From Armatimonadota bacterium (GTDB lineage Bacteria; Sysuimicrobiota; Sysuimicrobiia; Sysuimicrobiales; Kaftiobacteriaceae): a stretch of 64,000 nt of DNA. The DNA is taken from contig JAVKHY010000003.1 of the NCBI GenBank assembly GCA_031459765.1, positions 186,001 to 250,000 on the forward strand. The letters run 5' to 3'. Each line of letters opens with the position of its first letter. Positions within the stretch are counted from its first letter, which is position 1. This document shows, piece after piece, positions 34,196-46,024 of the stretch. The notes below the pieces were generated by a model that was not told the origin of the DNA, did no database searches, and worked only from the letters and a program-made list of their open reading frames with translations. Made by a program: the position numbers and the translations under genes.

Positions 34196-34951
34196 ATGGA
34201 AGCGCCGATCGAGCGCCGGAAGGTGTACGAACTGCTCGCGGAGCGCCTGCTGACCCGCATCGGCGAACGCCACCTCCGGCCTGGCGATCCTCTCCCGACC
34301 GAGCGCGAGCTCACCCGTCTCTACCGGGTCGGCCGCTCCTCGGTGCGTGAGGCCCTGCGCATGCTCGAGTCGAAGGGCCTGATCAAGCCCGTCGGCACCG
34401 GCGCCTTCGTCGTCGCCGAATACACCAACCCCTTCAACGATTCGCTCAACCTTCTCCTCACGCTCAAGGAGACGAGCCTCCGGGAGTTGTTCGAGGTGCG
34501 CAAGATCCTCGAGGTCGAAGCGGCGGCGCTGGCCGCGGCGAGGAGGACGGCGGCGGATCTGGAGGCGATGGGCCGGGCCGTCGAGGAGATGGAGGCGGGC
34601 CTGGCCTCTGCCGACCGCTACATCGCCGCGGATCTGCGGTTCCACCTCACGGTGGCCAGGGCCACGGGCAACAAGGTCGCCGTGCACTTGATGCACGCCA
34701 TCCGGGGGGTCCTGCAGGAGGCCCTGGCCTCGATCTACCGCATTCCGGGAAGCCCTCAGCAGTCCATCATCCAGCACCGCGGGATCCTGGCCGCGATCGC
34801 GAGCGGCGACGCCGCCGACGCGCGCTGGCAGATGTGGCAGCACCTGGCCCGCGTGGAGCGCGACATCGAGGAGATCCTGGCCGGCTCCCCCGCCGGGCGG
34901 GGGAGCCGAAGGCACGCGGCGGGGGGAGGGAAGGGGGCGCGGCGTGGCTGA
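34196..34951 (+). CDS. FadR-subfamily GntR transcriptional regulator
   Basis: A 251-residue regulator. The N-terminal winged helix (about 10-75) has LRPGDPLPTERELTRLYRVGRSSVREALRMLESKGLI. The C-terminal FCD ligand-binding domain (about 95-230) has FEVRKILEVEAAALAA and the metal/ligand residues around ADLRFHLTVARATGN and QHRGILAAIASGD. The family usually senses carboxylates such as lactate, gluconate or glycolate. It heads a run of co-directional catabolic genes, overlaps the next by 8 bp, and has a palindromic operator in its leader, so it probably controls itself and the cluster. The C-terminal 15 residues are a basic G/R-rich tail. Confidence 0.92.
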   Translation: MEAPIERRKVYELLAERLLTRIGERHLRPGDPLPTERELTRLYRVGRSSVREALRMLESKGLIKPVGTGAFVVAEYTNPFNDSLNLLLTLKETSLRELFEVRKILEVEAAALAAARRTAADLEAMGRAVEEMEAGLASADRYIAADLRFHLTVARATGNKVAVHLMHAIRGVLQEALASIYRIPGSPQQSIIQHRGILAAIASGDAADARWQMWQHLARVERDIEEILAGSPAGRGSRRHAAGGGKGARRG

Positions 34952-35828
34952 TCTCGGCTTCGTCGGGCTCGGCGTGATGGGCGGGCGGATCGTGCGGCGC
35001 CTGCTTGCCGCCGGGCATACCGTCACCGGGTACAACCGGACGAAGCACAAGGCGCAGTGGCTGCTGGACCTGGGCATGCGCTGGGGCGACACCCCGCGGG
35101 AGGTGGCGGCCGGCGCGGAGGTGACCTTCTCGATGCTCACGGACAGCGCCGCGCTGCGCGCCGTGGCCGAGGGGCCCACCGGCATCATCGCCGGCCTCGG
35201 CCCGGGGAAGGTGTACGTGGATATGAGTACCGTCTCCCCCCAGGTCAGCCGGGACATCGCCCGCGCCGTCGGGGAGCGCGGGGCGCAGATGCTCGATGCC
35301 CCGGTGTCCGGCAGCGTCAGCACCCTGGAGGAGGGCACCCTCTCCATCATGGCCGCCGGAGACCGCCAAACCTTCGACCGCGTGAAGCCCATCCTCCAGG
35401 CCATTGGACCGAAGGTGACCTACGTCGGCGAGCAGGGGCAGGCCGTCGTGATGAAGATCGCCGCCAACCTCAGTCTCGCCGTCCAGATGCTGGCCTTCAG
35501 CGAGGGCGTCCTGCTCGCGGAGAAGAGCGGCATCCGGCGGGAGGTGGCGGTGGAGGTGCTCCTGAACAGCGTGATCGCCTCGCCCATGCTCAAGTACCGC
35601 GGGCCCTTCGTCCTGCGCATGCCGGAGGAGGCGTGGTTCGACGTGCGGATGATGCAGAAGGACCTGGGTCTGGCCCTGGAGCTGGGCCGGCAGCTCTCAG
35701 TCCCGCTGCCCGCCACAGCCTCGGCAAATGAGCTGCTCACCGCGGCACGGGCGATGGGGTTGGGGGCACAGGATTTCGCCGTGCTGTTCGACGTGCTCCG
35801 TCATCTGGCCGGGATGGAGGGACGCTAG
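34944..35828 (+). CDS. beta-hydroxyacid dehydrogenase (3-HIBADH family)
   Basis: A 294-residue NAD(P)-dependent dehydrogenase of the 3-hydroxyisobutyrate / tartronate semialdehyde reductase family. The Rossmann motif is GFVGLGVMGGRIVRRLL (4-20), the substrate loop DAPVSGSVSTLEEGTL (about 117-132), and the catalytic Lys lies in GQAVVMKIAANLS (about 172). It would oxidise a 3-hydroxy acid to its semialdehyde, or the reverse. GTG 34944 lies 8 bp inside the regulator gene. The E1 alpha gene starts on the last base of its stop codon. Confidence 0.9.
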   Translation: MADLGFVGLGVMGGRIVRRLLAAGHTVTGYNRTKHKAQWLLDLGMRWGDTPREVAAGAEVTFSMLTDSAALRAVAEGPTGIIAGLGPGKVYVDMSTVSPQVSRDIARAVGERGAQMLDAPVSGSVSTLEEGTLSIMAAGDRQTFDRVKPILQAIGPKVTYVGEQGQAVVMKIAANLSLAVQMLAFSEGVLLAEKSGIRREVAVEVLLNSVIASPMLKYRGPFVLRMPEEAWFDVRMMQKDLGLALELGRQLSVPLPATASANELLTAARAMGLGAQDFAVLFDVLRHLAGMEGR

Positions 35829-36778
35829 TGGACTGGCTGCAGGTCTACGCGCAGATGCTGCGCATCCGCCTCTTCGAGGAGCGCGTGAACAGCTTGTACC
35901 GCAGCGGCAAGATGGAGGGGTTGGCCCACCTCTACATCGGCGAGGAGGCGGTGGCGGTCGGGGTCTGCCAGGCCCTGCGCGAGGACGACTATATCACCTC
36001 CACGCACCGCGGCCACGGCCACTGCCTGGCCAAGGGCGCCTCCCCGGCCCGCATGTTCGCCGAACTGCTGGGGCGCGTGGACGGGTACTGCCGCGGCAAG
36101 GGCGGCTCGATGCACATCGCCGACCAGGAGCGCGGCAACCTGGGGGCCAACGCCATCGTCGGCGGCAGCAGCGGCATCGCCACGGGCGCGGCCTTCTCGG
36201 CCCAGCGGCGCGGGTCGGGGCAGGTCGCGGTGTGCTTCTTCGGGGAGGGAGCGCTCGGCCAGGGGATCCTCTACGAGGTCATGAACATCGCCGCGCTGTG
36301 GCGCCTGCCGGTCATCTATGTCTGTGAGAACAACCTCTACACCGAGTACACCCCGGTGCGCGAGACGACGGCGGGCTCGATGCGGGCGCGGCCCGAAGCC
36401 TTCGGCATCCCCACCGAGGAGGTGGACGGGCAGGATGTGCGCGCGGTATTCGCCGCCGCGGCGCGGGCCGTCGCCCGGGCCCGGGCGGGAGAGGGGCCAT
36501 CCTTTCTCCTCTGTCACACCTACCGCTTCCACGGCCATCACGTCGGGGACGTGAACCGGGAATACTACCGGAGCAAGGAGGAGGAGGAGCTGTGGCGGAC
36601 GTCCCGCGATCCGCTGCGGCTGCTGGCCGGGTGGCTCCTGGAGACCGGTCAGGCCCGCGCCGCCGACTTCGAGCGGCTTGAGGCGGAGATCCGCGCCGAG
36701 GTCATGGCGGCGGAGCAGACCGCCCTCGCCGCGCCCTTCCCGGATCCCAGCGAGGTGACCCGGCATGTCTACGCGTAG
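35828..36778 (+). CDS. thiamine-diphosphate dehydrogenase E1 alpha subunit (PdhA/AcoA-like)
   Basis: A 316-residue E1 alpha of the pyruvate/acetoin/branched-chain 2-oxoacid dehydrogenase family. It carries STHRGHGHCLAKGA (about 60), the GKGGSMHIAD loop (about 93), and the TPP motif beginning FFGEGALGQG (about 138) and ending ENNLYTEYT. The usual GDG is GEG here, a variant I recall from acetoin-type E1 proteins. The start is GTG 35828, sharing one base with the previous stop. Together with the next gene it forms the alpha2beta2 E1. No E2 or E3 gene is in the cluster. Confidence 0.92.
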   Translation: MDWLQVYAQMLRIRLFEERVNSLYRSGKMEGLAHLYIGEEAVAVGVCQALREDDYITSTHRGHGHCLAKGASPARMFAELLGRVDGYCRGKGGSMHIADQERGNLGANAIVGGSSGIATGAAFSAQRRGSGQVAVCFFGEGALGQGILYEVMNIAALWRLPVIYVCENNLYTEYTPVRETTAGSMRARPEAFGIPTEEVDGQDVRAVFAAAARAVARARAGEGPSFLLCHTYRFHGHHVGDVNREYYRSKEEEELWRTSRDPLRLLAGWLLETGQARAADFERLEAEIRAEVMAAEQTALAAPFPDPSEVTRHVYA

Positions 36779-37778
36779 GGACGCTGTCGCCGCCCCGGTC
36801 CGGGAGATCACCTTCGCCCAGGCCGTGCGCGAGGCCCTCGCCGAGGAGATGCGCCGCGACCCGACCGTCTTCGTCATGGGCGAAGATGTGGCCGAAGCGG
36901 GAACGCCCTTCAAGGTGCTCTCCGGGCTGGTCGAGGAGTTCGGGCGCGAGCGCGTGATCGACACCCCGATCTCCGAGGCGGGGTTTGTCGGCATCGCCGT
37001 GGGCGCGGCGATGACCGGACTGCGCCCGGTCGTGGACATCATGTTCGGCGACTTCCTCGCGCTGGCCATGGACCAGATCGCCAACCAGGCGGCCAAAGTG
37101 CACTACATGTCGGGGGGAAAGCTCACCGTGCCCCTCGTCATCCGCACGACGATGGGTGCCCTGCGGCGGTCGGCCGCACAGCACAGCCAGAGCCTCCATG
37201 CCTGGGTCAGCCATATCCCGGGCCTCAAGGTCGCGCTCCCCTCGACGCCCTACGACGCCAAGGGGCTGCTGAAGACGGCGATCCGGGATCCGAATCCCGT
37301 GGTCGTCTTCGAGGACAAGATGATGTACCAGGTGCGCGACGCGGTCCCGGCGGAGGAGTACACGATCCCTTTCGGGGCGGCCGACGTCAAGCGCGTGGGC
37401 CGCGACATCACCCTCGTCGCCACCAGCAGCATGGTGCAGGTCGCCCTCCAGGCGGCCGCACAGCTGGCGGAGGAGGGCATCAGCGCCGAGGTGGTCGATC
37501 CGCGGACGACGGTGCCGCTGGACGCCGCGACCATCATCGCCTCAGTGCGCAAGACCAGCCGGGCGATCGTGATCGACGAGGGGTACCGCTCCTACGGCGT
37601 GACGGCGGAGATCGCCGCCCTGATCGCGGAGGGAGCCTTCGACCACCTGGACGCCCCCGTCCGCCGGCTGGGGGCCATGGACGTCCCGGTGCCGTTCTCC
37701 CCGGTGCTGGAGGACCGCACGGTGCCAACCCCGGAGCAGGTCGCGGCCGCGGCCCGGGAGCTCTGCGGAGTCGCATGA
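36765..37778 (+). CDS. thiamine-diphosphate dehydrogenase E1 beta subunit (PdhB/AcoB-like)
   Basis: A 337-residue E1 beta with MGEDVAEAGTPFKVLSGL (about 39), DTPISEAGFVGIAVGAAMTGLRPVVDIMFGDF (in two stretches, 66-97), and HSQSLHAWVSHIPGLKVALPSTP around 145. The C-terminal transketolase-like domain is complete. ATG 36765 overlaps the alpha gene by 14 bp. Active-site architecture fits 2-oxoacid or acetoin cleavage, but the missing E2/E3 leaves the acceptor undefined. They may be encoded elsewhere. Confidence 0.93.
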   Translation: MSTRRDAVAAPVREITFAQAVREALAEEMRRDPTVFVMGEDVAEAGTPFKVLSGLVEEFGRERVIDTPISEAGFVGIAVGAAMTGLRPVVDIMFGDFLALAMDQIANQAAKVHYMSGGKLTVPLVIRTTMGALRRSAAQHSQSLHAWVSHIPGLKVALPSTPYDAKGLLKTAIRDPNPVVVFEDKMMYQVRDAVPAEEYTIPFGAADVKRVGRDITLVATSSMVQVALQAAAQLAEEGISAEVVDPRTTVPLDAATIIASVRKTSRAIVIDEGYRSYGVTAEIAALIAEGAFDHLDAPVRRLGAMDVPVPFSPVLEDRTVPTPEQVAAAARELCGVA

Positions 37779-37816
37779 TGATCCTGGTGTCCTGACGGAC
37801 GGAGAGGAGTCGGCCG

Positions 37817-39157
37817 ATGGGGACCAAGACGTTCGGACTGATGGGCGTGGACTGGGAGGAGCGCGTGAACTTCGAGCGCCTCCGTACCGAGCGGCTGGCC
37901 CGGGTGAAGCGCTTCCTCGAGGCCTCCGAGCTCGGGGCGTTGCTGTGCTTCGATATGAACAACATCCGCTACATCACCGCCACCCACATCGGGACCTGGG
38001 CCATGGACAAGCTGGTGCGCTTCACGCTGCTCCCCCGCGGCGACGAACCGATCCTGTGGGACTTCGGCTCCGCGGCCCGGCACCACCGGCTGTACAACCC
38101 CTGGCTGGGAGAGCGCTCGCGCGCCGGGATCTCCACGCTGCGCGGCGCCTACCCGGAGCAGGCGGCGGACGTGGCGCGCAAGATCCGCGTCGAGCTGGAG
38201 CAGCGCGGGTTGCGGGACGCTCCGCTGGGGGTGGACGTGGTCGAGATCCCGGTGCTGGAGGCGCTGCGGGCGGAGGGGATCCGGGTCGTGGACGGTCAGC
38301 GTCTGATGCAGGAGGCGAGGAAGATCAAGACCCAGGACGAGATCACGCTGCTGACCACGGCCTGCATGATGGTCGACGCGGCGTACGAGGAACTGTACCG
38401 GACGATGCGGCCGGGGATGCGGGAGAACGAGTGCGTGGGGCTGGTGAACAAAGTCCTCTACGATCTCGGCAGCGAGCATGTGGAAGGCGTGAATGCCATC
38501 TCCGGAGAGCGCTGCAACCCCCACCCGCACGTCTACACCGACCGGGTGCTGCGCCCGGGCGACCCGGTGTACTTCGACATCCTGCACTCCTTCATGGGCT
38601 ACCGCACCTGCTACTACCGGACCTTCGTCGTCGGCAGCGCCTCCCGGGCCATGGTCGACGCCTACGCCCGCTGCCGCGACTACCTCGACGAGGCGATCAG
38701 TCTGATCAAGCCCGGGGTGACCACGGCCGATGTGGTGAAGGTCTGGCCCAAGGCCACGGAGTTCGGGTTCGCCGATGAGGAGGCGGCGTTCGCCCTCCAG
38801 TACGGCCACGGCGTGGGGCTGTCCATCTGGGAGAAGCCGATCTTCAGCCGTCTAGTGTCCTTCGATCACCCTGAGGTGATCGAAGAGGGCATGGTCTTCG
38901 CCCTGGAGACCTTCTGGCCGGCGGCGGACGGCTGGTCGGCGGCGCGCATCGAGGAGCAGCTGGTGGTGACCAAGAGCGGGTGCGAGGTGATCACGCGCTT
39001 CCCGGCCGAGCAACTGCTCGTGGCCGGCACCCGCTACTACACGGCGGTCGGCCCCCTGCCGGCGACCCGGGAGACGCAGTCGCACCTGAACCGCGCAGGC
39101 ACGGTGGAGGCGGTGGTGAGCAGCGCACAGTACGAAGGGACGCGGGTCCGCGGCTGA
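37817..39157 (+). CDS. atypical M24-family (DddP-like) metallo-enzyme
   Basis: A 446-residue protein with the creatinase-like N-terminal domain (about 20-190, ALLCFDMNNIRYITATHIGTWA) and an M24 pita-bread domain (about 200-430). Metal-site residues by family alignment are Asp254 (YFDILHS), position 265 (normally Asp, here Cys in GYRTCYYRTF), His331 (YGHGVGL), Glu364 (FALETFWP) and Glu379 (RIEEQLVVT). The Asp-to-Cys change makes ordinary aminopeptidase activity doubtful. The N-terminal wording resembles DddP, the M24 enzyme that cleaves dimethylsulfoniopropionate, but I cannot claim that reaction. ATG 37817 follows GGAGAGGAG. It lies in the catabolic cluster. Confidence 0.8.
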   Translation: MGTKTFGLMGVDWEERVNFERLRTERLARVKRFLEASELGALLCFDMNNIRYITATHIGTWAMDKLVRFTLLPRGDEPILWDFGSAARHHRLYNPWLGERSRAGISTLRGAYPEQAADVARKIRVELEQRGLRDAPLGVDVVEIPVLEALRAEGIRVVDGQRLMQEARKIKTQDEITLLTTACMMVDAAYEELYRTMRPGMRENECVGLVNKVLYDLGSEHVEGVNAISGERCNPHPHVYTDRVLRPGDPVYFDILHSFMGYRTCYYRTFVVGSASRAMVDAYARCRDYLDEAISLIKPGVTTADVVKVWPKATEFGFADEEAAFALQYGHGVGLSIWEKPIFSRLVSFDHPEVIEEGMVFALETFWPAADGWSAARIEEQLVVTKSGCEVITRFPAEQLLVAGTRYYTAVGPLPATRETQSHLNRAGTVEAVVSSAQYEGTRVRG

Positions 39158-39228
39158 TCGGTGCAGCGTGCCGTGAGGCCAGCCCGGCGTGTAGTGCCGC
39201 AGGGGGAGCCATGACGGGAGGTGGAGCG

Positions 39229-40230
39229 ATGGGTCGGTTATGGAGGCGGTATGCGGCCGCCGTCGTCGTGCTGGCGGCGGTGCTCGCGGTGTCGTTGCCC
39301 CAGACGCTGTCCGCCGCGCCCAAGGTGCGGATGACGATTCTGGGTGGTCCTCCGGCGGGCGTCTTTGGGATTTTCGCCACCGGCATCGCCACGTACATCA
39401 ACCGCGCCGTTCCCGAGGTGGACCTCTCGGTGGCGGCCACAGGGGGATCCACCGAGAACGTCCGGCGCCTGCAGGCCAAGGGCGCGGAGATGGGGCTGGC
39501 CTTTGCCTCCGACGTCTATGAGGCCTACAACGGGCTGGAGATCTTCCAGGGGACGCGGCACACCAACCTCCGGGCGCTGGGATTGGTGTTCAACGGCGCG
39601 TCGCACATCGTGACCTATCAGGACTCCGGCATCCGCAGTGTCGCCGAGCTGGCCGGCAAGCGCGTCGCCGTGGGCACGCCGGGATCGGGGACCTTTGCCA
39701 CCGCGGAGCGGGTGTTCCGGGTTCTGGGGATCTGGGACCGGATCACGCGGGTGCCGCTGCTGGGAGCCGCCGCTGCCAGCGCGCTCCAGGACGGCCGGGT
39801 CGACGCCTTCTTCTTCACCGGCCCCTATCCCGACCGGGGCACGATCGAGGCGGCGATGGTGAAGCCGATCCGGATGCTCGACGCCTACACCCCGGCCGCG
39901 GCCGCCGGTTTTTTGCGCCAGTTCCCGTACTATTCGCGGTTTGACTTCCCGGCCGGAGGGTATCCCGGCATGACCGAGTCGGTCCCGGCGGTAGGCATCC
40001 CGCTGCTCTGGCTGGCGCATGTCGACGTCCCGGCTCCGATCATCCAGACGATCCTCGCCGCCGCCTACAGCGTGCAGGGCCACGAGCACATGCTGCGCGT
40101 CCACGCCGCGGCCGCCGATATGCGTCCCCGGCAGGCGTTGAAGGGGATTGCGATCCCCCTGCACCGGGGGGCGGAAGCCTACTGGCGTTCCGTGGGGCTG
40201 GAGATTCCGGAAGCCATTCGGGCCCGGTAG
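39229..40230 (+). CDS. TAXI-family TRAP transporter solute-binding protein
   Basis: A 333-residue exported binding protein of the TAXI type. The signal peptide is residues 1-28 (VVLAAVLAVSLPQTLSAAP). Family strings are AATGGSTENVRRLQAKGAEMGLA, RVAVGTPGSGTFATAERV and GRVDAFFFTGPYP. TAXI systems take up carboxylates and related solutes using an ion gradient. ATG 39229 is chosen because GGAGGTG lies 5 bp upstream. An in-frame ATG at 39211 is possible. The permease gene follows after 12 bp. Confidence 0.9.
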   Translation: MGRLWRRYAAAVVVLAAVLAVSLPQTLSAAPKVRMTILGGPPAGVFGIFATGIATYINRAVPEVDLSVAATGGSTENVRRLQAKGAEMGLAFASDVYEAYNGLEIFQGTRHTNLRALGLVFNGASHIVTYQDSGIRSVAELAGKRVAVGTPGSGTFATAERVFRVLGIWDRITRVPLLGAAAASALQDGRVDAFFFTGPYPDRGTIEAAMVKPIRMLDAYTPAAAAGFLRQFPYYSRFDFPAGGYPGMTESVPAVGIPLLWLAHVDVPAPIIQTILAAAYSVQGHEHMLRVHAAAADMRPRQALKGIAIPLHRGAEAYWRSVGLEIPEAIRAR

Positions 40231-40242
40231 CCGAGACCGGCC

Positions 40243-42147
40243 GTGATCCGCACGCTCTCGCGGGCCTGGGATGTCGCCGCGCAGCTCCTCCTGGGCGGTG
40301 TCTCCCTGTACTACCTCTGGCTGGCCTGGTACGGGGTGGCCTCCCTGCAGTACTACCGCGGCGTCGCGGTGCTCTTCAGCTTCGTCGCTCCCCTGCTGCT
40401 GTACCGGGGATGGCGCCGCGCCCCGGAGAGAGCCCCGCACGCGGTGGATCTCCTCCTGGCGGCGGGCGCCGTCGTCGGCGTGGCCTACTGGATACTGGAG
40501 CACGAGGCCATGGCCTACCGGGCCGGCGCCTACACCTCGGTGGACGTGTGGATGGGCGTCGTGGTGACCATCGTGGCCATCGAGGCCGCCCGGCGAGTGC
40601 TGGGCTGGTCCATGGCGCTGTGCGCCATCATCCCCATCGCCTACGCCCTCTTCGGCCAGTACCTGCCGCCCATCGTCGGCCATCGGGGGTTCACGCTGCG
40701 CCGGGTCATCGAGTACGTCTATCTGACCTCCGATGGAATCTTCGGCATCATGGCCGAGGTGCTGGCCAGCTTCATCATCCCCTTCGTGGTCTTCGGCGCC
40801 TTCCTGCAGCGGGCCGGCGTGGGCAAGTTCTTCATCGACCTGTCGCTGGCCGTTTTCGGACGGATCGCGGGCGGTCCGGCGCAGGCGGCCGTGCTCAGCA
40901 GCGCGCTGCTGAGCACGATCAACGGGAGCCCGGTGGCCAACACCGTGACGACCGGATCGATTACCATTCCGCTGATGAAGCGGGCCGGCTTTCCCCCGCA
41001 CATCGCCGCCGCGGTGGAGGGGGCGGCTTCCACCGGCGGGATGATCCTTCCGCCGGTCATGGGCGCGGGAGCGTTCATCATGGCCGAAATGACGGCCACC
41101 CCCTACGCGCAGATCGTGAAGATCGCGGCCATCCCGGGCATCCTCTTCTTCGTCTCCGTGGGGACGATGGTTTACCTGGAATCCCGCAAGCTCGGACTGC
41201 GCGGCCTGCATGCGCACGAGGTGCCGCGGGCCAGAGCGACCCTGCAGGAAGGCTGGTACCTCTTCCTGCCCATCGTCGTCCTGGTCGGCCTCCTGCTGCG
41301 GGGATTCTCTCCTGAGCGCTCGGCGGTCTACGCGATCCTCAGCGCGGTGGCGGTGAGCTGGGTCCGCCCCCAGACGCGCATGGGCCCCCGGGCCGTCTGG
41401 CAGGCGCTCGTCGATGGCGCCAGGTCGTCGCTGTTCGTGGCCGCGCTCACCGGCGCGGTGGGCGTACTCATCGGCGTCCTGGCCCTGACCGGGATCGGGA
41501 TCCGCTTCTCGTACATCGTGGTCGCCCTGGCCGGAGGGAAGCTGTGGCTGACCCTGTTGCTGATCGCCGTCTCGACGCTGGTCCTGGGGCTGGCCCTGCC
41601 CATTACCGCGACCTATCTGATTGTGGCCGTGATTGCGGTGCCGGTGCTGCGGGAGCTGGGGGTGCCGCTGCTCGTGGGGCACATGATTGTCTTCTGGCTG
41701 GCCCTCGATTCGAACATCACGCCCCCCGTGGCGTTGGGGCCGTTCGCCGCGGCGGCCATTGCCGGCGCCGATCCGATGAAGACCGGGTGGAACTGCTTTC
41801 GGTTCGCCAAGATCATCTACGTCATGCCGGTCCTTTTCGCCTACACGCACCTGCTCCTCAACGGCACGCCGGCGCAGAACGCGGCGGCGGTCGTGGCGGC
41901 CACCCTGGGGACGCTGATCTTCTCCGCGGTGAGCACAGCGCAGCTCATCATCCGGACCACGCTGGTCGAGTGGCTGGCCCTGGCCGCGGCCACGCTGCTG
42001 GCGTTCCTGCCCACCCCGCTGGCCTGGACGGCAGCGCTGATGCTCTTCGGCGTCGTGGTCATTTCGCAGCGCCGGCGGGCGGCCGGTGCGATCCGGATGG
42101 TCCAGCCCCTGGCCGCAGAACAACCCGGCTCAGAGGGGAGCGCTTGA
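40243..42147 (+). CDS. TRAP transporter fused 4TM/12TM permease (DctQM)
   Basis: A 634-residue membrane protein with hydrophobic segments throughout, a fusion of the small DctQ-like and large DctM-like subunits as is usual for TAXI-TRAP systems. Family strings include INGSPVANTVTTGSITIPLMKRAGF (about 227-251, in two parts), GAASTGGMILPPVMGAGAFIMAE (about 262-284) and VFWLALDSNITPPVALGPFAAAAIAGADP near 500. It uses a Na+ or H+ gradient to import the ligand of the adjacent binding protein. The start is GTG 40243. Confidence 0.93.
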   Translation: MIRTLSRAWDVAAQLLLGGVSLYYLWLAWYGVASLQYYRGVAVLFSFVAPLLLYRGWRRAPERAPHAVDLLLAAGAVVGVAYWILEHEAMAYRAGAYTSVDVWMGVVVTIVAIEAARRVLGWSMALCAIIPIAYALFGQYLPPIVGHRGFTLRRVIEYVYLTSDGIFGIMAEVLASFIIPFVVFGAFLQRAGVGKFFIDLSLAVFGRIAGGPAQAAVLSSALLSTINGSPVANTVTTGSITIPLMKRAGFPPHIAAAVEGAASTGGMILPPVMGAGAFIMAEMTATPYAQIVKIAAIPGILFFVSVGTMVYLESRKLGLRGLHAHEVPRARATLQEGWYLFLPIVVLVGLLLRGFSPERSAVYAILSAVAVSWVRPQTRMGPRAVWQALVDGARSSLFVAALTGAVGVLIGVLALTGIGIRFSYIVVALAGGKLWLTLLLIAVSTLVLGLALPITATYLIVAVIAVPVLRELGVPLLVGHMIVFWLALDSNITPPVALGPFAAAAIAGADPMKTGWNCFRFAKIIYVMPVLFAYTHLLLNGTPAQNAAAVVAATLGTLIFSAVSTAQLIIRTTLVEWLALAAATLLAFLPTPLAWTAALMLFGVVVISQRRRAAGAIRMVQPLAAEQPGSEGSA

Positions 42148-42174
42148 CTCCTGGAGTGAGGGAGGGAAGGAGCA

Positions 42175-42624
42175 ATGAGTGTCCCGCACCACCGGCTCCA
42201 CGAGAGCGACGTGGGGGTCATCGGTCGCGGTCCCGGCTCCAAGGTGTTCCACGTCGAGGAGGTCACCGAGCTCGCCTCGCAGCATGACGGCCGGCGGAAG
42301 AAGATCCTGCTGAATGCGATCAACACCGGCTCGCCGCTCCTGGTCGACATCGTCTCCTACGCCCCGGGCGGGACCTCGCCGCTGCACTTCCATCGGGAGA
42401 TCGATCACTTCTTCTTTGTCCTGGAGGGGCGGGGGCGCATCGTGATCAACGGGCAGGACCATCCGCTGCGGGCCGGGACCGTGGTGTGGATCGCCGCGGG
42501 GGACATGCACAAAGTGTACGCCGACGCGGACAGCCCTTTGACCTTCCTGGAATACTTCTCCCGCGGCGCGCACGAGACGGTCTTCCTGGAACAGGCCTGC
42601 GAGTGGCGCCCCGATCCACGGTGA
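42175..42624 (+). CDS. cupin-domain protein
   Basis: A 149-residue single-domain cupin. The first motif is PGGTSPLHFHREIDHFFFVLEG, with HxH(x)E-type ligands at about residues 66-72, and the second is PLRAGTVVWIAAGDMHKVYADAD, giving a complete 3-His/1-Glu style metal site. It could be a small dioxygenase, isomerase or metal-dependent binding protein. ATG 42175 follows GGAGGGAAGGAG. It overlaps the hydrolase gene by 4 bp in a GTGA junction, so the two proteins are made together. Confidence 0.87.
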   Translation: MSVPHHRLHESDVGVIGRGPGSKVFHVEEVTELASQHDGRRKKILLNAINTGSPLLVDIVSYAPGGTSPLHFHREIDHFFFVLEGRGRIVINGQDHPLRAGTVVWIAAGDMHKVYADADSPLTFLEYFSRGAHETVFLEQACEWRPDPR

Positions 42625-43706
42625 CGGCTGACGCCAACATCCAGGCGGCCATCGCGCACTGGGCGCCGCGTTTTGTGGCCCAGGGTGTGGACTACAACGA
42701 CTTCGTCCGAACCACGGCTCTTCTCCAGCAGTGGGAGGAGTGGTTGGAGGCGTGGTGCCGCACCGCGGCGACACATGTGGCGCTGGCGCGCGAGGCGGAA
42801 GATCGCGCACGCCCGATCACCGCCGGCGAGGCCTACGTCCGCGCCGCCTTGTGCTTCCACTTTGCCAACTTCCTCTGGTTTGTGGACCTGGACCGGCACC
42901 GCGCCGCGGCGGAGGAGGCCGTGGCCAGCCTGTATGCCGCGCATCGCCTCCTCGACCCGTCCGCGCAGCGGATCGAGGCGTCCCTGGAAGGGGCGCGGAT
43001 GGTGGCCAACCTGCGCCGGCCGGCGGGCGGCGGGCGGCCGCCGCTCGTGCTGCTCCTGCCCGGATTGGACTCCACCAAAGAGGAGTTCTTCCATTGGGAA
43101 CAGGTCTTTCTGGCCCGCGGGATGGCCACGCTGTCCCTCGACGGCCCGGGGCAGGGCGAGACGGGATATACGACGACGATCCGACCGGACTACGAGGTGG
43201 CCGTGACGGCCGTCCTCGATGCGCTGGCCGGACGGGACGACATCGACCTCCGCAGAGTCGGCGCCGTCGGGGTGAGCCTGGGAGGCTACTATGCGATCCG
43301 GGCCGCCGCCTTCGAACCGCGGATCGCGGCCGCGGTGGCGATCAGCGGGCCGTACAACTTCGGGGAGTGCTGGCCGTCGCTGCCGGAGCTGACCCGGGAG
43401 GCGTTCCGGCATCACTGCGGCGCACAACGCGCGGAGGAGGCGCGGGTGCGGGCGTCCGACCTCGACCTCGCGCCGGTGCTCCCGCACCTGCGGAGCCCCC
43501 TGCTGGTGATCGCCGGCCGACAGGATCGCCTCATCCCCCCGGTCCAGGCGGAACGGACCGCGGCCGAGGCCCCCGACGCGGAGCTGGTGATGTACCCGGA
43601 GGGCAACCACGTCTGCAACAACATCCCCTACAAGTACCGTCCCCTGGCCGCGGACTGGATCGGTGAGCAGCTTCGCGCGCCGCGGACGGGGCCACGGACG
43701 TCGTGA
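42621..43706 (+). CDS. C-C bond hydrolase-like alpha/beta hydrolase
   Basis: A 361-residue enzyme with an N-terminal helical cap (about 1-130) and a hydrolase domain. The oxyanion region is LLLPGLDSTKEEFFHWEQVFLARG in two parts (about 145-170), and SLDGPGQGETG follows. The triad is Ser219 (GVSLGGYY), Asp302 (AGRQDRLIP) and His330 (PEGNHVCNN). The layout resembles the 2,6-dihydroxypseudooxynicotine hydrolase group, serine enzymes that cut C-C bonds. FrsA-type esterases are the alternative. The start is GTG 42621, overlapping the cupin stop. The CoxL-like gene begins on its own stop in the same GTGA manner. Confidence 0.82.
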   Translation: MTADANIQAAIAHWAPRFVAQGVDYNDFVRTTALLQQWEEWLEAWCRTAATHVALAREAEDRARPITAGEAYVRAALCFHFANFLWFVDLDRHRAAAEEAVASLYAAHRLLDPSAQRIEASLEGARMVANLRRPAGGGRPPLVLLLPGLDSTKEEFFHWEQVFLARGMATLSLDGPGQGETGYTTTIRPDYEVAVTAVLDALAGRDDIDLRRVGAVGVSLGGYYAIRAAAFEPRIAAAVAISGPYNFGECWPSLPELTREAFRHHCGAQRAEEARVRASDLDLAPVLPHLRSPLLVIAGRQDRLIPPVQAERTAAEAPDAELVMYPEGNHVCNNIPYKYRPLAADWIGEQLRAPRTGPRTS

Positions 43707-46024
43707 GCGTGTCCGGCTCGGGCTGGATCGGCCGGCCCGTGCGCCGCCGCGAGGATGGCCGCTACCTGCGGGGCGAGGCCACCTACGTGGCGGACATTGC
43801 CCTGCCCCGCATGGCGCACGTGGCCTTCGTGCGCAGTCCGCACGGCCATGCCGTCCTGGGACCGATCGCCACCGCCCGCGCCCTGACCCTGCCCGGCGTC
43901 CTCGGCGTGTTCACCGCGGGGGATCTGGCCGATCGCCTCCGTCCCGTTCCTCCCAACGTCGTCGAGGGCGCCACCGTCGCCCCCGTGCCGCATCCGCCGC
44001 TGGCCTCAGGACGCGTGCGGTACGTCGGGGAACCGGTGGCGGCTGTGGTCGCCGACACCCCGGCGGCGGCGGAAGACGCGCTGGAAGCCGTCGACGTCGA
44101 GTATGCGCCGCTGCCCGTGGTCACCGATCCCCAACGGGCGCTGGAAGGAGCGCCGCCGGTGCACGATGCTGTCCCCGACAACGTCCTCCTCCGGTGGTCG
44201 CGGACCGGCGGCGATCCGGATCGGGCCTTCGCCGCCGCCGCGACGGTCGTGCGCCAGACGTTCCGCATCCCGCGGGTGGCCGCCGCCCCGATCGAGGCCC
44301 GCGGCGCCGTGGCCGCCTACGATCCGGGCGCCGACCTGCTGACCGTCTGGTGTTCGATGCAGGATCCGCACCGCCCGCGCCACCAGCTCAGCCGGGCGCT
44401 CGGCCGGCCGGAGGACCGCATCCGGGTGATCGTGCCCGACGTCGGCGGCGCCTTCGGGAGCAAGGGGTCGCTGCCGGTGGAGATCGCCGTGCTCGCCGCC
44501 CTGGCCATCCGCCTGGGCCGCCCTCTGCGCTGGATCGAGAGCCGTCGCGACAATCTGCTGGGCTCCTACCAGGGACGCGGCCTCGATGCCGAGATGGAGA
44601 TGGCGCTGGACGGGGAAGGGCGCATCCTTGCCGTGCGCGCCAGGCTCGTCGCCGATCTGGGGGCGTACCTCTTCCCGGCCACGCCGGTGCCATCCCTGAC
44701 CACGGGCATGCTGCTCGTCGGCGCCTACGCCATTCCCCACGCCTCGGTGGAGGTGGTCGGGGTCGCCACCAACAAGGTGCCCACGGGTCCGTACCGCGGG
44801 GCGGGCCGGCCCGAGGCCGCCTATCTGGTCGAGCGCATGGTCGATCTCGCCGCCCGGCAGACGGGGATCGATCCCGTCGAGTTGCGGCGGCGCAACGCCA
44901 TCCCCGCGGACCGCTTCCCCTACACGACCCCGCTCGGCTTCACCTACGACTCCGGCGACTACACCGCGGCGCTGGACCGGCTGTGTCAGATCATCGACTA
45001 CGAGCGCGCCCGGGCGGAGCAGCGGCGCGCGCGGGAGGCGGGCCGCCTGCAGGGGGTGGGGGTGGCCCTGTACGTGGAGCGGGCCGGGAGCCAGTTGTGG
45101 GAGAGCGCGGCCGCCTCGGTCGAGCCGAGCGGACGCGTCGTCGTGCGCATCGGCTCGAATCCCCACGGGCAGGGGCACGAGACCACCTTCAGTCAGATCG
45201 CGGCCGAGGTGCTGCGGATCGATCCGGATCTGATCACCGTCGAGCACGGCGACTCGGCCCTCGTGCCCCGGGGAGTGGGCACGTTTGGGAGCCGCTCCAT
45301 TACGGTGGGCGGATCGGCGCTGCTCCTGGTCCTGGAGAAGATCAGGACGCAGGCCGCCGCCATCGCCGCCCACCTGCTGGAGGCCGCTCCGGCAGACATC
45401 GAGTGGGAGGACGGGCGCCTCTTCGTTCGCGGCGCACCCCGGCGCAGCGTGGCCTTTGCCGACGTCGCCGCGGCGGCGTATCAGCCGGGGCGGCTCCCGC
45501 CCGGGATGGAGATGGGGCTGCAGGCGTCCGGGATCTTCGTCCTGCCGCGTCCGGTCTTCCCCTTCGGCGCCTACGGCGCCGTCGTCGAGATCGACCCCGA
45601 AACGGGCCAGGTGCGCCTGCTCACCGTGGCCGCGGTGGACGACGCCGGCCGGATCGTCAACCCGCTGCTGGCCGAAGGACAGGTGATTGGCGGCGTCATC
45701 CAGGGATTGGGAGAAGCCTTCACGGAGGTCTTCGTGTACGGGGAGGACGGGCAGCCCCTCAGCGCCTCCTTCACCGAGTACGCCCTCCTCCGCGCCGCCG
45801 ACGCGCCCGTCGTGCACAGCGAGTTCCGCGAGACGCCGTCGCCGATCAATCCGCTGGGGGCCAAGGGCGTCGGCGAGGCCGGCACGATCGGTGTCCTGGC
45901 CGCGGTGGCGAACGCGGTGATGGACGCCCTGGCGCCGCTGGGTATCCGCCATCTCGACTTCCCGCTGACGCCCGCCCGGCTGTGGGCGGCCATCCGGGAA
46001 CGACGGAGCACCGGATGGGGGTAG
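43703..46024 (+). CDS. molybdenum hydroxylase large subunit (CoxL/XdhB-like, form II)
   Basis: A 773-residue molybdopterin-binding subunit of the xanthine dehydrogenase/aerobic CO dehydrogenase family. The first domain has IGRPVRRREDGRYLRGEATY, and the second VPDVGGAFGSKGSLPVE. The active-site loop is PYRGAGRPEA (Tyr364-Arg369), the AYRGAGR form II type, not the AYRCSFR loop of true CO dehydrogenase. The catalytic Glu725 lies in GAKGVGEAG. The genes for the FAD and 2Fe-2S subunits that normally accompany it are absent here. The start is GTG 43703 with a 4-bp overlap with the hydrolase gene. It probably hydroxylates an N-heterocycle or aldehyde. Confidence 0.9.
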   Translation: MSVSGSGWIGRPVRRREDGRYLRGEATYVADIALPRMAHVAFVRSPHGHAVLGPIATARALTLPGVLGVFTAGDLADRLRPVPPNVVEGATVAPVPHPPLASGRVRYVGEPVAAVVADTPAAAEDALEAVDVEYAPLPVVTDPQRALEGAPPVHDAVPDNVLLRWSRTGGDPDRAFAAAATVVRQTFRIPRVAAAPIEARGAVAAYDPGADLLTVWCSMQDPHRPRHQLSRALGRPEDRIRVIVPDVGGAFGSKGSLPVEIAVLAALAIRLGRPLRWIESRRDNLLGSYQGRGLDAEMEMALDGEGRILAVRARLVADLGAYLFPATPVPSLTTGMLLVGAYAIPHASVEVVGVATNKVPTGPYRGAGRPEAAYLVERMVDLAARQTGIDPVELRRRNAIPADRFPYTTPLGFTYDSGDYTAALDRLCQIIDYERARAEQRRAREAGRLQGVGVALYVERAGSQLWESAAASVEPSGRVVVRIGSNPHGQGHETTFSQIAAEVLRIDPDLITVEHGDSALVPRGVGTFGSRSITVGGSALLLVLEKIRTQAAAIAAHLLEAAPADIEWEDGRLFVRGAPRRSVAFADVAAAAYQPGRLPPGMEMGLQASGIFVLPRPVFPFGAYGAVVEIDPETGQVRLLTVAAVDDAGRIVNPLLAEGQVIGGVIQGLGEAFTEVFVYGEDGQPLSASFTEYALLRAADAPVVHSEFRETPSPINPLGAKGVGEAGTIGVLAAVANAVMDALAPLGIRHLDFPLTPARLWAAIRERRSTGWG

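Follow-up and report, generated by a model that had tools for sequence, protein, structure and literature searches.

A cysteine in place of the bridging metal aspartate across a widespread clade of M24B proteins

The M24 superfamily is a textbook case of dinuclear metallohydrolases, whose metal site is defined in part by its bridging aspartate. Creatinase works without metal, metal-free M24 enzymes having lost metal ligands, and the ectoine hydrolase DoeA/EutD is an M24B enzyme serving catabolism. For the aminopeptidase P of Pseudomonas aeruginosa, an excerpt of the published account has Asp271 binding both metals, MnA together with His354, Glu384 and Glu408, and MnB together with Asp260 and Glu408 (PMC5723419). 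For DddP, a further excerpt names Asp297 and Asp307 as ligands and Asp377 as the proposed base, and the DMSP lyase residues are reported there as invariant (PMC4108388).

Here I discuss M24C, a protein encoded in a window (the whole stretch of DNA that was analysed, 64,000 nucleotides of an Armatimonadota bacterium) and a member of the M24 superfamily by its sole Pfam domain, Peptidase_M24, which far exceeds the PF00557 cut-off (E 5e-38, 131.4 bits against 23); the coordinates of the gene, its residues and its neighbours are collected in Table 1. Against the canonical five-ligand site of Asp, Asp, His, Glu and Glu, the second aspartate of M24C is Cys265 and the other four residues (Asp254, His331, Glu364 and Glu379) are present, just as a preliminary description of this DNA had claimed and as the residues (read by script on the protein), the codons (checked on the DNA) and the alignment all bear out. 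The swap strikes the bridging ligand, because Asp271 of aminopeptidase P, the residue aligned with Cys265, binds both metals in the excerpt cited above (PMC5723419). The spacing GY-xx-[D/C]-xx-RT is identical in M24C and in Asp-type M24 proteins, so that Cys265 stands in register with the second metal aspartate and an alignment slip is ruled out as its source. Inspection of the sequence found no Asp or Glu within residues 255-280, and there is therefore no nearby acid able to replace the bridging aspartate; the preliminary description had named another acid in the ligand place as a way in which it could be wrong, and at the level of sequence and alignment none is there.

Table 1. Positions in the window of the M24C gene, its domain and metal-site codons, and the genes around it
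Feature	Position	Strand	Basis or remark
GntR/FadR-type regulator, opens the gene run, overlaps next gene	34196..34951	+	named by sequence resemblance alone
3-hydroxyisobutyrate/tartronate-semialdehyde-reductase-family NAD(P)-dependent dehydrogenase	34944..35828	+	
E1-alpha, thiamine-diphosphate 2-oxoacid-dehydrogenase-type enzyme	35828..36778	+	
E1-beta, partner of window E1-alpha	36765..37778	+	
M24C, Cys-type M24B protein, 446 aa	37817..39157	+	ORF, Pfam, orthologues
Peptidase_M24 (pita-bread) domain, residues 179-386	38351..38974	+	Pfam PF00557
Asp254 codon GAC, first metal Asp	38576..38578	+	= Asp260 aminopeptidase P, Asp295 DddP
Cys265 codon TGC, bridging-Asp position	38609..38611	+	= Asp271 aminopeptidase P, Asp307 DddP
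His331 codon CAC, predicted metal ligand	38807..38809	+	
Glu364 codon GAG, predicted metal ligand	38906..38908	+	
Glu379 codon GAG, predicted bridging metal ligand	38951..38953	+	
TAXI-type TRAP substrate-binding protein, start codon provisional	39229..40230	+	TIGR02122, 206.5 bits vs 84.35
Fused TRAP permease	40243..42147	+	TIGR02123, 589 bits vs 321
Small cupin	42175..42624	+	
Alpha/beta hydrolase, 2,6-dihydroxypseudooxynicotine hydrolase-related, start codon provisional	42528..43706	+	2jbw, E 7.5e-53
Large (molybdopterin) subunit, CO-dehydrogenase/xanthine-dehydrogenase-type hydroxylase	43703..46024	+	

The exchange of Asp for Cys at position 265 is fixed across a clade and is not accidental. 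Among 43 genomes of the phylum there are 25 M24C orthologues, the window copy included and the others 81-90% identical to it, and all 25 carry Cys265. A scan of a species-genome collection turned up 454 relatives; the top 80 of them, at 70-90% identity, were analysed together with six added plasmid loci (52-68% identity), and Cys265 and all other ligands are found in every one of these 86 further loci (52-90% identity). When 120 distinct M24 proteins were compared, 108 proved to be Cys-type and the 12 more distant ones all had Asp at this position, and among the loci analysed each of the 101 distinct relatives at least 50% identical to M24C, from many bacterial phyla, has Cys at 265 and none has Asp, which settles in favour of the preliminary description the matter of whether close homologues share the cysteine. 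These 101 use both cysteine codons (TGC in 82, TGT in 19), so silent changes accumulate and the residue stays fixed. The motif GY[RK][ST]CYYR is present in 108/108 Cys-type sequences, and Cys is also found, within GYRSCYYRTF, in seven haloarchaeal relatives at 33-36% identity. As a control, a background skewed towards ordinary peptidases was taken, namely the 30 M24 domains that score best in the phylum, and all 30 have the full Asp, Asp, His, Glu, Glu set.

A decayed peptidase, against which the preliminary description had already argued, is ruled out, with Cys265 kept in 25/25 orthologues and, along with the other ligands, in 86/86 further loci, and no drift to be seen: across the 108 Cys-type sequences, invariance reaches 98.5% or more at 66 positions. 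Some bookkeeping bears on these counts. Pairwise tblastn gave Cys at 265 in L034, L035, L036 and L128, where the MAFFT alignment shows Asp, and these were counted as Asp-type; L115, with an in-frame stop within the aligned stretch, was excluded from set A2 (the window plus 47 of 59 non-redundant loci drawn from the best 80 of the 454 relatives) and retained in the Cys counts; and the phylum rows L014-L016 have one stop codon each inside the search alignment. Set A1 comprised the window and 17 of the 25 phylum orthologues, the window copy being one of the 25.

The M24C clade is distinct and very widespread, with members in bacteria and haloarchaea. A maximum-likelihood tree joins the bacterial Cys-type proteins and haloarchaeal L125, the one haloarchaeal Cys-type row in the tree and one on a long branch, at 100/95 support and leaves the Asp-type proteins outside. 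The nearest Asp-type group is formed by relatives such as a paralogue in the window's own genome (G000:C2:343561-344739) and the Haloarcula protein L126 (34% identity), which resemble M24C over its length at 33-34% identity but retain Asp at 265 and fall outside the Cys clade. A search of viruses returned 17 pattern matches, 0 of them related to M24C, and found neither a viral origin nor viral copies.

Other M24 proteins of these genomes deserve a word of their own. The window's genome encodes two Asp-type paralogues (L002 and L003, G000:C2:335766-344739) that are about 33% identical to M24C and lie at most 9 kb apart, and Asp-type M24 pairs are adjacent in G022-G029 and G033; such paired paralogues are perhaps heteromeric. 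The same genome holds an M24 protein with a degenerate site (L007, G000:C1:425527-426345), reading Gly, Glu, His, Glu and Ser at the five ligand positions. Several M24C loci carry a second M24 protein (L050, L085, L091, L045, L046, L049, L056, L060, L071, L072 and L076), and the aligned rows show E, Q, Q and G at 254, 265, 364 and 379; in such loci two unlike M24 proteins may share one pathway.

What, then, has become of the metal? The invariant set of the Cys-type sequences includes H236, D254, C265, Y266, Y267, R268, H331, E339, E364, R377 and E379, and M24C most likely still binds metal, because Asp254, His331, Glu364, Glu379, the active-site Arg377 and His236 of the preceding loop are kept throughout; metal loss is unlikely, since four of the five ligands are invariant. 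Altered metal use, as the preliminary description had suggested, is thus likely, and the thiolate of Cys265 would take over from the bridging carboxylate. Either the centre would contain one metal, bound at the His331/Glu364/Glu379 site with the thiolate as a terminal ligand, or it would stay dinuclear in an altered form, its metals bridged by the thiolate. By general bioinorganic chemistry, such an exchange would be expected to affect both the bridging water and the strength of the centre as a Lewis acid. The alternative in which Cys265 is the nucleophile or the acid/base of a metal-free, creatinase-like enzyme draws on the invariant block of Cys265, Tyr266, Tyr267 and Arg268, which fits a catalytic motif as well as it fits a ligand, on the existence of metal-free M24 enzymes such as creatinase, and on the second M24 protein in some M24C loci that has lost metal ligands. 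I nevertheless regard it as unlikely, given that none of the other four metal ligands varies within the clade and that the apparent metal-loss paralogues replaced several ligands together. It is partly because those paralogues swap several ligands at once that a metal centre with the Cys265 thiolate is favoured. An always-Cys clade with everything else kept amounts to a natural experiment in metal-centre change, and the swap probably marks enzyme chemistry new to the fold rather than decay.

The genes from 34196 to 46024 all lie on one strand and mostly overlap or nearly so, and the catabolic gene cluster that the preliminary description had seen here recurs elsewhere. Neighbours within 6.5 kb were counted in those 48 of the 86 loci that have at least 5 kb on either side, and E1-alpha with E1-beta was found near M24C in 40 of the 48, a 3-hydroxyisobutyrate-dehydrogenase-family gene in 37, E2 in 36 and GntR relatives in 15, M24C usually standing directly downstream of E1-beta. 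E1 is absent within that distance in 8 of the 48, and the coupling of M24C to E1 is strong, not absolute. The Spt16 N-domain has a non-catalytic role, and Spt16 is among the fold matches of the M24C model. Ebp1, a homologue of which is the subject of PMC3888471, is likewise a non-catalytic M24 protein. Such precedents, together with the strong linkage to E1-alpha and E1-beta and the usual place just behind E1-beta, could be taken to mean that M24C is a non-catalytic M24 protein that serves the E1 complex as a subunit or regulates it; much of the invariance sits in the active site, however, the other ligands are kept and M24C does occur in 8/48 loci with no E1 nearby, and I find this reading hardly credible.

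Most operon-type E1-alphas share 63-79% identity with that of the window, and the window's genome has three divergent E1-alphas, the other two being 40% and 33% identical to the window's; the window E1-alpha and E1-beta therefore probably form a complex other than the housekeeping one. Just two E2 genes exist in this genome, and they lie on contig 2 close to the other E1-alphas (G000, 140433 and 178368), and there is no E2 in the window's own operon (34196-46024), where E1 may act without an E2 or with a borrowed one. As a separate observation, the window E1-alpha (35828-36778) and its operon-type relatives have GEG for the usual GDG of the thiamine/Mg motif in 40 of 62 matches at least 55% identical, with GDG in 20 and 2 unaligned. 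The aspartate of GDG is a Mg-binding residue, and GEG is a conservative change there.

Around this core the neighbourhood varies. Relatives of the alpha/beta hydrolase are found in 16 M24C loci and those of the molybdopterin hydroxylase large subunit in 12, and the variable neighbours further include ABC or TRAP transporters, aldehyde dehydrogenases, flavin-dependent monooxygenases, flavin reductases, RidA, amidases and amidohydrolases. With transporters and side genes differing between loci, it is not certain that all members of the family share one substrate, and pantothenate, acetoin-like acyloins and N-heterocycles in the manner of the Rut pathway, all of them considered as substrates, were dropped because the side genes are too different from locus to locus.

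Two sets of loci illustrate the range. M24C genes occur on Paenarthrobacter plasmids (L043 in Paenarthrobacter sp. R1; L039/L131 in P. ureafaciens SD-1 and R1), one of them about 2 kb from sulR, a flavin reductase gene of sulfonamide breakdown, and others with an HsaA-like monooxygenase, an amidase, RidA and a fused E1. The haloarchaeal Cys-type genes L125, L135, L136, L137 and L138 lie near LLM-class flavin/F420 oxidoreductases and VOC or EthD proteins, with a thiamine-binding protein alongside in two loci, acetolactate-synthase-like in L135, the one that was scanned; in the stretches analysed of the seven haloarchaeal loci, one of which is without annotation, no E1 pair is annotated near the Cys-type gene.

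To judge by the composition of the operon, the substrate of M24C would be a small organic acid or amide that is imported and then hydrolysed or opened by elimination. The product would feed the thiamine enzyme encoded alongside (E1-alpha/E1-beta, in most loci joined by E2), and that enzyme would in turn convert a 2-oxo acid or acyloin to an acyl-CoA, while the 3-hydroxyisobutyrate-type dehydrogenase would take a hydroxy-acid or semialdehyde partner. Taken together, it seems reasonably probable that M24C is a functional non-peptidase M24B protein, one in which the bridging aspartate has permanently given way to Cys clade-wide, and likely a metal-binding enzyme of catabolic cleavage. A bolder proposal, which I offer tentatively, is that a thiolate M24 centre evolved once, spread in bacteria and haloarchaea, catalyses a reaction new to the fold and, in bacteria, feeds a dedicated thiamine-dependent acyl-CoA complex. 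Since bacterial relatives number in the hundreds and the operon is conserved, assaying a single enzyme could be enough to put a name to a widespread catabolic pathway.

How does M24C compare with the systems introduced at the outset? Literature searches on the clade or its operon found no paper, most subscription papers lying outside their scope, and the clade would appear to be a conserved branch of M24B in which one metal ligand has changed, uncharacterised as far as the searched literature shows. Its fold was ranked from a predicted model (48 sequences, mean pLDDT 81.1, pTM 0.79; pLDDT below 50 at residues 230-239, the His236 loop) by re-ranking Foldseek's best 1000 chains, with Z differences within 1 read as ties, and the best match is DddP (4b28; Z 36.0, rmsd 2.7, 389 aligned, 23% identity), followed by prolidases and ectoine hydrolase at Z about 34.

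DddP (4b28, 4rzy) is thus the nearest solved relative by sequence and by fold, and it shares with M24C its length, its N-domain plus pita-bread domain, its assignment as a non-peptidase and four residues (DddP Asp295, His371, Glu406 and Glu421 for 254, 331, 364 and 379). It differs in having Asp307 where M24C has Cys265, an extra ligand Asp297 where M24C has Leu256, and the proposed base Asp377 where M24C has Ile337/Trp338; M24C scores 132.1 bits against the DddP model NF043017, with a cut-off of 600. The identification of M24C as DddP is rejected on that score and on the missing equivalents of Asp297, Asp307 and Asp377, and the preliminary description's suggestion of lyase chemistry as in DddP finds no specific support. 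A lyase of the DddP kind with DMSP or an analogue as its substrate, a reading for which the closeness of the solved structures speaks, is very improbable in view of the score, the Leu for Asp297, the Ile/Trp for Asp377 and the lack of any DMSP or acrylate gene recognised among the named neighbours.

With aminopeptidase P and prolidase (M24B), M24C shares the fold, four of the five ligands and the active-site arginine (Arg377). It differs from them in Cys265 for Asp271, in its catabolic operon and at the second active-site histidine, which is His361 in E. coli numbering and is replaced by Trp338; most of the clade has Trp there, a sub-clade of Rhodobacterales and Streptomyces has His, and the haloarchaeal row has Tyr. 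Annotation pipelines name the Cys-type clade a peptidase (relatives are entered as 'Xaa-Pro peptidase family protein'), and a fold and architecture that are those of prolidases and DoeA would suit a protein that has simply exchanged Asp for Cys and keeps its function, be it that of an ordinary Xaa-Pro peptidase or that of an amidohydrolase like ectoine hydrolase. I judge this improbable: M24C falls far under the cut-offs of the equivalogs PepQ Xaa-Pro dipeptidase (NF040821, 75.7 bits against 630) and ectoine hydrolase DoeA/EutD (NF038259, 69.6 against 575; TIGR02993, 52.5 against 613), so that identity with either is rejected, the second histidine is replaced in M24C and variable between sub-clades, and a catabolic operon offers no reason for a peptidase. 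DoeA/EutD is an M24B protein like M24C and matches its fold at Z 34.6. Creatinase, finally, puts the pita-bread fold to non-peptidase use, as is proposed for M24C, but does so metal-free, whereas the M24C clade, far from having lost its metal ligands, holds four of the five invariant in 108 Cys-type sequences.
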